Source of the DNA: Gemmatimonadota bacterium
GTDB lineage: Bacteria; Gemmatimonadota; Gemmatimonadetes; Longimicrobiales; RSA9
Length of the DNA stretch: 64,000 nt
Assembly: GCA_007126035.1 (NCBI GenBank)
Contig: SLCC01000015.1
Location: forward strand, 36,254-100,253
Reading direction: 5' to 3'
Made by a program: the position numbers and the translations under genes. Each line of letters opens with the position of its first letter. Position 1 is the stretch's first letter. Under the pieces are notes generated by a model, which ran no database searches, had not been told where the DNA came from, and saw nothing but the letters and a program-made list of their open reading frames with translations. This document shows, piece by piece, positions 57,273-64,000 of the stretch.

Positions 57273-57713
57273 GTGCGGGTCGTACTCCAGCGGGTGAGTC
57301 GCGGCCAGGTCCGGGTCGACGGCCACACCGTCGGTCAGATCGGCCATGGCTATGTCCTGCTTGTGGGATTCACCCACGACGACGGCGAAGCCAGTATGGT
57401 CTGGATGGCGGACAAGATCGTGGGGCTGCGCCTGTTCCGGGATCCCGACGACAAGATGAACCTGTCTCTGGACGACGTGGATGGCTCGCTCCTGGTCGTC
57501 AGCCAGTTCACCCTCTATGGCGATACCCGCAAGGGCCGCCGGCCCAGCTTCGTAGACGCTGCCGGGCCTGACCTGGCCGTCCCCCTCTACGAACGCTTCC
57601 TCGCGCTGCTCCGGGAAAGGGTCCCGGGACGAGTGGAGAGCGGCGAGTTCGGCGCCATGATGGACGTGGAGCTGGTCAACGACGGCCCGGTAACCCTGGT
57701 CCTGGAGCGATGA
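57273..57713 (+). CDS. dtd: D-aminoacyl-tRNA deacylase
   Basis: MRVVLQRVSRGQVRVDG, VVSQFTLYGDTRKGRRPSF. Confidence 0.95.
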   Translation: MRVVLQRVSRGQVRVDGHTVGQIGHGYVLLVGFTHDDGEASMVWMADKIVGLRLFRDPDDKMNLSLDDVDGSLLVVSQFTLYGDTRKGRRPSFVDAAGPDLAVPLYERFLALLRERVPGRVESGEFGAMMDVELVNDGPVTLVLER

Positions 57714-58360
57714 CCGCACGCGACGCCGCGCCCGCCGGCCACACGGCGGCAGCACCCACCGGCCCCCCCATCGTCCTGGCCTCCCAGTCCCCCCGCCGCC
57801 GTGAGCTCCTCCAGCAGCTGGGCCTCGCCTTCCAGGTGGAGCCGGCCCGCGTGGACGAGTCGCTCCTGCCCGGGGAGGACGCCGCGGAGCACGTGCGGCG
57901 TTTGGCTCTGGAGAAGGCACGTGCCGTCGCCGCTCGCCGGCCCGAGGCCCTGGTCATAGCCGGCGATACCGCCGTGGTGCTCGACGACCAGGTCATGGCC
58001 AAGCCCCGGGACACCGAAGACGCCGTGGCCATGCTCCTTCGCCTCCAGGGCAAAACGCACCGGGTCGAGACCGGCGTGGCAGTGGCGGTGCCCGGTGGAC
58101 GCGCCCTGGCCGACGTGGTGGGGGCGGACGTCACCTTCCGCGCCTTCGACGAGGACTTCGCCCGCGCCTACGTTGCTACCGGCGAGCCCATGGACAAGGC
58201 AGGGGCGTACGGGATCCAGGGGCACGGCGCGGCGCTGGTGGAGGCGGTTGCCGGGGACTACTTCGCGGTGGTGGGGTTGCCCATCGCCCGGGTGGTGGTG
58301 ATGCTGGAGGAGGGAGGGTGGAGGTACGCGTTCGGGGGTGGGGTGAGGGAGATTGGGTGA
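57710..58360 (+). CDS. maf: Maf-type nucleoside triphosphate pyrophosphatase
   Basis: LASQSPRRRELLQQLGLAFQV, DKAGAYGIQGHGAALVE. Confidence 0.95.
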   Translation: MTARDAAPAGHTAAAPTGPPIVLASQSPRRRELLQQLGLAFQVEPARVDESLLPGEDAAEHVRRLALEKARAVAARRPEALVIAGDTAVVLDDQVMAKPRDTEDAVAMLLRLQGKTHRVETGVAVAVPGGRALADVVGADVTFRAFDEDFARAYVATGEPMDKAGAYGIQGHGAALVEAVAGDYFAVVGLPIARVVVMLEEGGWRYAFGGGVREIG

Positions 58361-58365: not shown

Positions 58366-58643
58366 GAACAGCGAGAGGCCGGAAAGCGGAAGGCGGAAAG
58401 CGGAACAGCGAGAGGCCGGAAAGCGGAAGGCGGAAAGCGGAACAGCGAGAGGCCGGAAAGCGGAAGGCGGAAGACGGAAAGCGGAACAGCGAGAGGCCGG
58501 AAAGCGGAAAGCGGAAGGCGGAAAGCGGAACAGCGAGAGGCCGGAAAGCGGAAGGCGGAAGACGGAAAGCGGAACAGCGAGAGGCCGGAAAGCGGAAGGC
58601 GGAAGGCGGAAAGCGGAACAGCGAGAGGCCGGAAAGCGGAAGG
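58366..58643 (+). repeat. Repeat array A: 37/44-bp units built from 7-bp GGAARRC modules plus a 16-bp GGAACAGCGAGAGGCC module
   Basis: Six complete units (37,37,44,44,44,44 bp; GAACAGCG at 58366, 58403, 58440, 58484, 58528, 58572, 58616) plus one partial. Confidence 0.95.
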
Positions 58644-58667
58644 GGAAGTTGAAGGTGGGCCGGGGGG

Positions 58668-59036
58668 TCACGCGTTCTTCCAGTGTTGGATCAGGCGGGT
58701 GAGCATCATGCCGAGGCGGTGGAGGTAGTTGTCGGCCTGGTTGATCAGGGGGCGGTCGGCGAGGCGGAGCATGCGGACTTCCCTCATTCCCGAGGCGCAC
58801 TCATTGGCTGAGCCGCGTGCGCTGCTGTACCGAGCGGCCTTGCTGCCGGGCTCCTCGCTTCCCGAGCCTTCCGCGATGTTGAGGTGGATCGAGCGCGCTG
58901 AGGATTGCAGGTGCGCGCCGAGGTCGCCGAAACCCCGCGGGAGCCCGGCCACGATCGTAACCACCACTTCCATCAGCTGCATGGCCACCTTGTGGGCGTC
59001 CGGCTCTTCGAACGGATATCTCTTGGGATCTGTCAT
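58668..59036 (-). CDS. Four-helix-bundle protein, S23/IVP (23S rRNA intervening-sequence protein) family
   Basis: LPRGFGDLGAHLQSSARSIHLNIAEGSGSEE...RYSSARGSANECASGMREVRML matches the SIxxNIAEG / ARGSxxE family pattern. Confidence 0.85.
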   Translation of the reverse strand: MTDPKRYPFEEPDAHKVAMQLMEVVVTIVAGLPRGFGDLGAHLQSSARSIHLNIAEGSGSEEPGSKAARYSSARGSANECASGMREVRMLRLADRPLINQADNYLHRLGMMLTRLIQHWKNA

Positions 59037-59109
59037 ATTACCCGTAGCCTCTTCTGCTGGCGCCACGATACGTGTTGCAGCGGGGCACTCCCATAGCCCA
59101 AAGGGACGC

Positions 59110-59456
59110 CCCCCCTTCCGTTTTCCGGCTTCTCTCTTCCGTCTTTCCGTTTTCCGGCTTTTCGCCTTTCCCCCTTCCGTTTTCCGGCTTCTCCCTTCCG
59201 CCTTTCCGTTTTCCGGCTTTTCGCCTTTCCCCCTTCCGTTTTCCGGCTTCTCCCTTCCGCCTTTCCGTTTTCCGGCTTTTCGCCTTTCCCCTTTCCGTTT
59301 TCCGGCTTCTCCCTTCCGCCTTTTCCGTTTCCGGCTTTTCGCCTTTCCCCTTTCCGTTTTCCGGCTTTTCGCCTTTCCCCCTTCCGTTTTCCGGCTTCTC
59401 CCTTCCGCCTTTCCGTTTCCGGCTTTTCGCCTTTCCCGCCTCTCCGTTTTCCGTGT
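59110..59456 (-). repeat. Repeat array B: ~59-bp units, each two ~29-30-bp halves; purine-rich on minus strand
   Basis: TTCCGTTTTCCGGCTT recurs at 59116, 59175, 59234, 59293, 59352, 59382; reverse complement is GGAAAAC/GGAAAGGC/GAAAAGCC modules. Confidence 0.95.
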
Positions 59457-59530: not shown

Positions 59531-61021
59531 ATGACCGCGATACTCTCGATCGACCAGGGCACCAGCGGGACCGGCGCCATGGTGGTGGGCGCGACGGGCG
59601 AGATCCTGGGTCGCTCGTACAGTGAGTTCACCCAGCACTTCCCCCGGCCCGGCTGGGTGGAGCACGACCCGGCGGAGATCTGGGACGTGACCGTGCGGGT
59701 GGCCTTCGAGGCGCTTGGCATGGCCGGCGGGGTGGAGGTGGCTGGCATCGGGATCACGAACCAGCGGGAGACGGTGGTGCTCTGGGACCGGGCCACGGGC
59801 GAGCCGGTGCACCGGGCCATCGTGTGGCAGGACCGGCGCACGGCGGCTCGCTGCCGTGAGCTCCGGGAAGCAGGCGCCGAGGCCCTGATCCGGGAGCGGA
59901 CGGGGCTCGTGATCGACCCGTACTTCTCGGGCACCAAGCTGGAATGGCTGCTGGAGAACGTGCCCGACGCCCGGCGCCGGGCGGAAGCGGGCGAGCTGGC
60001 GGCGGGAACGGTGGACAGCTGGCTCATCTGGAAGCTCACCGACGGTCGGGTCCACGCCACCGATCCCACCAACGCGTCCCGGACCCTCCTGTTCGACATC
60101 GAACGCCGGGAGTGGGACGACGAGCTGCTGGACCTGTTCCGCGTTCCCCGCGCCATTTTGCCGGAGGTCCGGCCTTCGAGCGGGGACTTCGGCCACGCGG
60201 ACCCGTCCCTCTTCGGCCGGCCCATCCCGGTGGCTGGCGTGGCAGGCGACCAGCAGGCGGCCCTCTTCGGCCAGGGCTGCTGGCGGCCGGGGCTGGCGAA
60301 GAACACGTACGGCACCGGCGCCTTCCTGCTGCTCCACACCGGCACGGAGCGCGTCCAGTCTGAGAGCGGGCTCCTGACCACCATCGCCTGCGACGATCGG
60401 GGCCAGCCGGCCTTCGCCCTGGAGGGCGCCATCTTCGTGGCCGGCGCCGCCATCCAGTGGCTCCGTGACGGCCTGGGCCTGCTCCGGGAGGCGGCGGAGA
60501 GCTCCGACATGGCCCTGGGCCTCGCCTCGAACGATGGCGTCTATTTCGTCCCCGCCTTCGTCGGCCTGGGCGCGCCCCACTGGGAGCCGGAGGCACGTGG
60601 CACGATCGTCGGGCTGACCCGGGGAGCCGACGCTCGCCACCTGGCCAGGGCCGCCCTGGAGGCCATGGCCTTCGCCACCCGGGACGTCCTGGTGGCCATG
60701 GAGGCCGACTCGGGTGTGGCGGCGGCGGAGCTGGCGGTGGACGGCGGCGCTGCGGAGAACGACTGGATGATGCAGTTCCAGGCCGACCTCCTGGACCTTC
60801 CCGTCAAACGACCCCGGAACCTGGAGACCACCGGCCTGGGCGCCGCCGGGCTCGCCGGTCTGGCCACCGGGGTATGGCCGGATGCCGGGACTTTCCTGGG
60901 CTCGCGACCAGAGCCGGACCGTTTCCGACCGACCATGGACCCCGACGGCCGCCAGCTCCTGGTCCGCGGCTGGGACCGGGCCGTCGCAACCGCCCTGCAC
61001 TGGGCCCGGGACCATGAGTGA
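59531..61021 (+). CDS. glpK: Glycerol kinase
   Basis: MTAILSIDQGTSGTGAMVV, GITNQRETVVLWDR, VGLGAPHWEPEARGTIVGLTRG; start trimmed from ORF 59072-61021. Confidence 0.95.
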   Translation: MTAILSIDQGTSGTGAMVVGATGEILGRSYSEFTQHFPRPGWVEHDPAEIWDVTVRVAFEALGMAGGVEVAGIGITNQRETVVLWDRATGEPVHRAIVWQDRRTAARCRELREAGAEALIRERTGLVIDPYFSGTKLEWLLENVPDARRRAEAGELAAGTVDSWLIWKLTDGRVHATDPTNASRTLLFDIERREWDDELLDLFRVPRAILPEVRPSSGDFGHADPSLFGRPIPVAGVAGDQQAALFGQGCWRPGLAKNTYGTGAFLLLHTGTERVQSESGLLTTIACDDRGQPAFALEGAIFVAGAAIQWLRDGLGLLREAAESSDMALGLASNDGVYFVPAFVGLGAPHWEPEARGTIVGLTRGADARHLARAALEAMAFATRDVLVAMEADSGVAAAELAVDGGAAENDWMMQFQADLLDLPVKRPRNLETTGLGAAGLAGLATGVWPDAGTFLGSRPEPDRFRPTMDPDGRQLLVRGWDRAVATALHWARDHE

Positions 61022-63938: not shown

Positions 63939-63949
63939 ATCAAACCCCC

Positions 63950-64000
63950 GGAAAGGCCGGAAAGCGGGAAGGCCGGAAAGCGGAAAGGCCGGAAAGCGGA
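63950..64000 (+). repeat. Repeat array C (start): 16-bp GGAAAGGCCGGAAAGC units, continues past window end
   Basis: ggaaaggcc ggaaagc gggaaggcc ggaaagc ggaaaggcc ggaaagc gga. Confidence 0.9.

Follow-up and report, generated by a model that had tools for sequence, protein, structure and literature searches.

An S23-family gene between inverted heptamer arrays as a candidate compact transposing element outside rRNA

Between maf and glpK in a Gemmatimonadota genome, a single S23-type gene lies between two long purine-rich repeat arrays of opposite orientation. The locus raises the question of whether gene and arrays form one element, whether such an element can move, and how it relates to the heptanucleotide repeats of cyanobacteria and Xanthomonas, which have been described but for which no cause is known. 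No function has been assigned to S23 itself since the 1990s, and if S23 and the heptamer repeats belong to one system, both the function of the protein and the origin of the repeats become testable. Here, we follow this question from the locus itself to other genomes, using "the window" for the whole 64,000-nucleotide stretch of DNA that was analysed.

The gene and its arms between maf and glpK

The S23/IVP gene occupies positions 58668 to 59036 on the minus strand, with its ATG at 59036 and its stop codon at 58668, and encodes 122 amino acids that match both PF05635 (44.1 bits, 2.6e-11; cut-off 33.8) and TIGR02436 (47 bits, 2.4e-12; cut-off 24). Its downstream arm, array A (58366 to 58647), is purine-rich on the plus strand and CU-rich in the S23 transcript, and Tandem Repeats Finder (TRF) describes it as 7-nt GGAARRC units within a 44-nt higher-order unit (94% matches, score 415). 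The upstream arm, array B (59111 to 59453, minus strand), is GA-rich in the transcript and consists of TTTCCGN-type heptamers within a 59-nt higher-order unit (92% matches, score 522), with a period of 7 also called by TRF. Both arms are tandem 7-nt units in intergenic DNA, as are the heptanucleotide repeats known as STRRs or SSRs. The flanking genes maf (57710 to 58360, plus strand) and glpK (59531 to 61021, plus strand) lie outside the element, within which we recognised no gene other than S23, no transposase and no catalytic motif. TRF also reports a third array of the CGGAAAG type, like A and B, on the plus strand at 63948 to 64000, where the contig, and with it the window, stops and truncates the array; no S23 gene is visible beside it up to that point.

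A transcript of the gene runs from GA-rich B through the open reading frame to CU-rich A. The two arms are inverted, and their best arm-to-arm local score is 204, compared with at most 30 when the window arm is paired with arms taken from 39 other S23 loci and at most 35 for windows of the same geometry elsewhere in the 64 kb (n = 596). Together with the family profiles and TRF, this score bears out the preliminary description of an S23-type gene between inverted purine-rich arrays. The complementarity is imperfect, as the higher-order unit of A differs from that of B. As had also been proposed, the transcript ends are predicted to pair imperfectly into a long stem enclosing the open reading frame, with a minimum free energy of −560 kcal/mol, lower than in 25 dinucleotide shuffles, which give −475 ± 11 kcal/mol (z = −7.8).

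The protein is an ordinary member of its family. AlphaFold2 predicts a four-helix bundle (pLDDT 93.6), and the top Foldseek matches are XCC0516 (2GSC; probability 1.00, TM 0.79–0.89), whose gene type has short GGGAATC arms in several Xanthomonas species, and BT_0352 (2RLD). To our knowledge, no catalytic residues have been described in the S23 family. The next matches are to Avd of diversity-generating retroelements (DGRs), both alone (4DWL) and in complex with reverse transcriptase (8UB7), and this likeness raises the possibility of a retroelement, in which S23 would play the role of Avd while a reverse transcriptase (RT) encoded elsewhere would copy its hairpin RNA and carry out the insertion. 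The structural match to Avd as it occurs in DGR ribonucleoproteins, the strong prediction of a hairpin RNA and the presence of an RT fragment in the same genome are consistent with this explanation, which we nevertheless consider improbable, as that fragment is the sole RVT_1 match in the assembly, is partial, lies at a contig end and resembles a group II intron maturase. We found no DGR-type RT in the assembly and, in agreement with the preliminary description, no RT near S23 in the window, nor in the annotated plasmid loci that we read. The further suggestion of an RT acting from elsewhere is not supported, the only one found in the assembly being a match to group II intron maturases.

Comparison of the maf-glpK junction, which the preliminary description had proposed, yielded relatives without the element. 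In six of them, from the family and order of the window genome, maf adjoins glpK across a gap of 36–144 bp, and in four relatives an open reading frame that we take to be mtnA, by recognition of its protein, lies between the two genes. The 1.1-kb gaps of these four were considered as decayed elements and ruled out, as they hold the mtnA-like frames and no S23 match. Among the relatives compared, the window genome alone has S23 at this junction, and the element between 58360 and 59531 may have replaced an mtnA-like gene or come after its loss.

Matching arms at other S23 loci

The genome has two S23 genes, the second of which has weak arms, and S23 was found in 24 of the 150 genomes searched, comprising the window's own and its relatives. 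At these loci the repeat unit varies, for example GGAATGG/CCCCATT, AGTGCGTG/CGCACTCA, CGCACG/CGCGTG and GGGCGTTA/AACGCCTA, and the two arms of each locus correspond to one another. In arm swapping over 40 loci from the window and its relatives, the mean score was 58.9 for a locus's own arms vs 22.8 for swapped arms, and none of 20,000 permutations reached the former. A score of at least 40 was found at 29 of the 40 S23 loci vs none of 1204 background windows of the same geometry, taken from the same loci and the window.

Many of the S23 genes in these 24 genomes lie no more than a few hundred bases from contig ends. Assemblies seem to break at such arrays, so that the element may be under-counted in draft genomes; in one relative, several of the nine S23 matches are at contig ends. 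For the window locus itself, contamination or an assembly artefact is hardly credible: the assembly is a draft of 218 contigs in which arrays are often found at contig ends, but the element is internal to a contig of 100 kb and has normal flanks, and its anatomy is repeated in complete circular plasmids.

A scan of named genomes gave 80 loci spread over many phyla, with CPR bacteria and one Methanophagales archaeon among the hosts. For the 78 that could be tested, the median score was 35 for own vs 18 for swapped arms, again with none of 20,000 permutations reaching the observed value. When loci were pooled, a score of at least 34 was reached by 87 of 128 S23 loci vs 28 of 2420 background windows (1.2%). 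About one third of the 128 have arms below this threshold, for instance several Xanthomonas orthologues and the second S23 of the window genome, and since loci were picked by S23 sequence and score, weakly armed copies are under-sampled in places. The polarity of the arms is kept: on the sense strand, 73 loci have a G-rich upstream arm, compared with 11 in which it is C-rich (p 2e-12). A period of 7 fits the arms best in 56 of 87 loci, followed by 8 and 6, and the median arm measures 33 nt. Similarity between S23 proteins is weakly related to similarity between their units (Mantel test, rho 0.12, p 0.03).

The genomic settings of these loci are diverse. The same anatomy is seen in cyanobacterial plasmids, where the units are classic heptamers (AGGGTGT and AGTAGGG, for example), and elements are found within operons, as in the arrangements cas6-S23-cas4 and cas10-S23-cmr3 and among nrd genes. 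The presence of S23 genes in CRISPR-Cas operons had in fact been noted earlier, without explanation (PMC3936711). No rRNA was found near any of the 18 free-standing S23 loci scanned for it, and a search of phage records found no S23 relatives.

Filled sites, empty sites and hairpins without a gene

The preliminary description had named a lack of empty-site alleles as an outcome that would speak against a mobile element, and such alleles are present in cyanobacterial plasmids. At one site, the element lies between an integrase gene and an open reading frame in two Calothrix brevissima plasmids and in Nostoc punctiforme, and a three-base spacer is found there in Tolypothrix, Aulosira and Nostoc carneum. 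At another, next to a TrbI/VirB10 gene, Trichormus variabilis carries the element and plasmids of Nostoc linckia and PCC 7120, which are 97.5–98% identical, are empty; the insert spans array to array, and GTAAT (5 bp) is present on both sides of it and once in the empty site, a repeat that may be microhomology. The third is filled directly after a stop codon in N. punctiforme pNPUN02 and Nostoc C052 and empty in Nostoc ATCC 53789 and N. flagelliforme. Comparison of filled and empty alleles revealed no flanking duplication at the integrase and pNPUN02 sites. The ends of the inserts in these plasmids are the inverted arrays, an arrangement equivalent to the terminal inverted repeats of IS elements and MITEs.

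Copies related to one another are also found in different places. The elements of the trbI site, the pNPUN02 site and an Aulosira plasmid, which are three unrelated contexts, are 82–84% identical from array to array and not beyond, and the Geminocystis-type S23 element is found again in Nostoc edaphicum in another context and with another unit (GGGAACA vs AGGGAAA). To judge from sequence comparison, such related copies in unrelated contexts are the best evidence for movement.

Several other sites were looked at. The Trichormus insertion site of Nostoc sp. C052 pC052_E (L388, 936–1069) holds a truncated S23 element, reduced to its upstream arm and the 5′ portion of its open reading frame. Anabaena 90, with a long TGACAGG array and S23 in its cas6-cas4 spacer (L085, 3617–3917), was considered with Dolichospermum as a filled/empty pair and proved not to be a clean one, as the spacer of the Dolichospermum operon, which is 99% identical, has a different inverted-repeat insert (L387, 820–1066); the spacer attracts insertions. 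The Xanthomonas region between two genes that are presumably carA and carB, named by recognition, offers no clean empty site either, its spacer being occupied by other genes.

Heptamer arrays also exist without an S23 frame. Around 185 GGGAATC heptamer arrays per genome, 70–75 of them in convergent pairs, have been reported in Xanthomonas (Rehm et al. 2015, PMC4692102). When we counted (GGGANNN)4 and S23 in the same 35 Xanthomonas genomes, the five without S23, or with a partial or broken one, had 12, 37, 46, 48 and 131 matches, and in the other thirty the count was never below 104 and had a median of 199.5 (p 4e-4, in a test that ignores kinship). A second S23, with GGGGACC arms, is found in four Xanthomonas genomes, in which the search region has 26–37 matches, mostly to its arms, vs 3–21 in the 31 others (p 6e-4, again ignoring kinship). 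For the order of the window genome, S23 is associated with array abundance at p 1e-10 in a test that likewise ignores kinship; for instance, (AGTNCNN)4 is found 25 to 1107 times in the S23-bearing genomes of one genus, and 8 times in the one member of that genus that lacks S23, and across 126 genomes lacking the gene no count exceeds 9. ORF-less pairs have the G-rich arm first, as in S23 elements, and spacers of 34–250 nt. As a correlation, then, ORF-less hairpins with the same units and polarity are numerous in S23-carrying genomes. This is as far as the earlier proposal that the element makes or spreads the repeats is borne out: genomes with S23 have many such arrays and genomes lacking it have few, and the relation is correlative only.

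About 756 kb of the window genome was surveyed, a sample weighted towards contig starts and short contigs; most of the arrays in it have no S23 beside them, and the link between S23 and arrays is thin within this genome. Arrays with no S23 nearby had been named beforehand as an observation against the proposal, and they do occur; they look like ORF-less derivatives. The genome also has a second array family, of GAGCTCG/GAACTCG-type heptamers in direct orientation (L349, 3069–3257; L381, 5385–5576), which is clustered in short contigs with no S23 nearby. One could argue from arrays without S23, and from array lengths that vary between species, that heptamer arrays merely grow by slippage and by gene conversion between arms at hot spots, with S23 as a passenger. 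We find this very unlikely, because the arms bracket S23 far more often than background would allow, their polarity is fixed, and the abundance of arrays tracks both the presence of S23 and its unit.

A more serious alternative arises from two ORF-less hairpins that occupy orthologous sites in 30 Xanthomonas species. Their units differ by species, the arms change together through compensatory substitutions, and the array lengths vary, a pattern as compatible with a maintained function as with decayed mobility, and they are possibly functional RNAs. S23-family proteins of solved structure include a pentamer (PMC4990558), and the arrays could be RNA binding sites of a ring-shaped S23 pentamer, as repeated triplets are for TRAP, with S23 controlling its own mRNA and the operons that have solo hairpins, and with no mobility of the arrays. 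In addition to the compensatory changes, the conserved polarity relative to the S23 gene is in keeping with such regulation, and the median arm of 33 nt would correspond to about five 7-nt units, given the pentameric state of the solved relative 2GSC. However, insertion is required to account for precise empty sites and for related copies in unrelated contexts, and a unit that varies from locus to locus would be odd for the site of a single regulator, for which reasons we think it unlikely that regulation accounts for the arrangement.

Proposed reading and comparison with known systems

With a probability of roughly 0.7, we read the feature in the window as one copy of a widespread, compact transposing element of the form array-S23-array, which is IVS-like, lies outside rRNA and has ORF-less derivatives. 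At the level of sequence, the anatomy, the matching of arms locus by locus, their concerted change, the precise filled and empty sites and the related copies in unrelated contexts are established. The idea of a free-standing IVS-like element has held up in these comparisons, given the recurrence of its anatomy across phyla, its filled and empty sites and its copies in different contexts. Seven-letter repeats of a class hitherto without a known origin are probably also explained by the element.

As to mechanism, sequence comparison suggests that the element moves. The S23 pentamer may recognise the heptamer hairpin as RNA or as single-stranded DNA, and, by analogy with what RAYT does for REP, S23 might act in trans to maintain or spread the ORF-less hairpins. 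Copying is assumed to be carried out by the host, through replication or RT activity, and the templating of one arm by the other within the hairpin would lead to the concerted change of both.

More tentatively, and at somewhat less than even odds, S23 with its heptamer arms could represent a large, overlooked class of mobile elements in bacteria and at least one archaeon. Such elements would need no transposase: a four-helix-bundle protein and a hairpin of its own unit would suffice, with copying left to host enzymes, and the class would be the source of heptanucleotide repeats (STRR, GGGAATC, AGTGCNN), with the 23S rRNA IVS as a specialised descendant. If S23 and the heptamer repeats are indeed one system, a mobile-element class living inside operons, including CRISPR-Cas operons, would be added to those already described. 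Our literature search, limited to papers outside subscription, found no paper joining S23 outside rRNA with heptamer arrays.

Several known systems resemble parts of this element. The REP/REPIN-RAYT layout consists of a small gene between inverted repeats together with many ORF-less inverted pairs in the genome, and the S23 element is similar in having both a gene between inverted repeats and ORF-less pairs. RAYT, however, is a Y1 HUH transposase (TnpA_REP), whereas the sole recognisable gene of the window element is S23, which forms a four-helix bundle and is not known to be catalytic, and the repeats of S23 elements, unlike those of REP/REPIN, are heptamer arrays with locus-specific units. 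The Avd protein of DGRs has the same fold as S23, but no RT gene was found in the S23 neighbourhood of the window locus. The cyanobacterial STRRs and Xanthomonas GGGAATC SSRs have the same 7-nt units, are intergenic and often form convergent pairs (PMC4692102); they have been treated as simple repeats or G-quadruplexes, with S23 unmentioned (Rehm et al. 2015, PMC4692102).

The closest likeness is to the 23S rRNA IVS of Coxiella and Leptospira, in which a single S23 frame lies within self-complementary ends, as it does in the window, where the arm score of 204 and the folding z of −7.8 both point to such ends. In contrast to the IVS, the element described here is located not inside an rRNA gene but in the spacer between the protein genes maf and glpK, its arms are inverted, locus-specific heptamer arrays, and it is found at many sites and accompanied by dispersed ORF-less hairpins. 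The Coxiella IVS has GACAGAT heptamer repeats upstream of its S23 frame (PMC4990558), and these heptamers support a shared origin of the IVS and the element.
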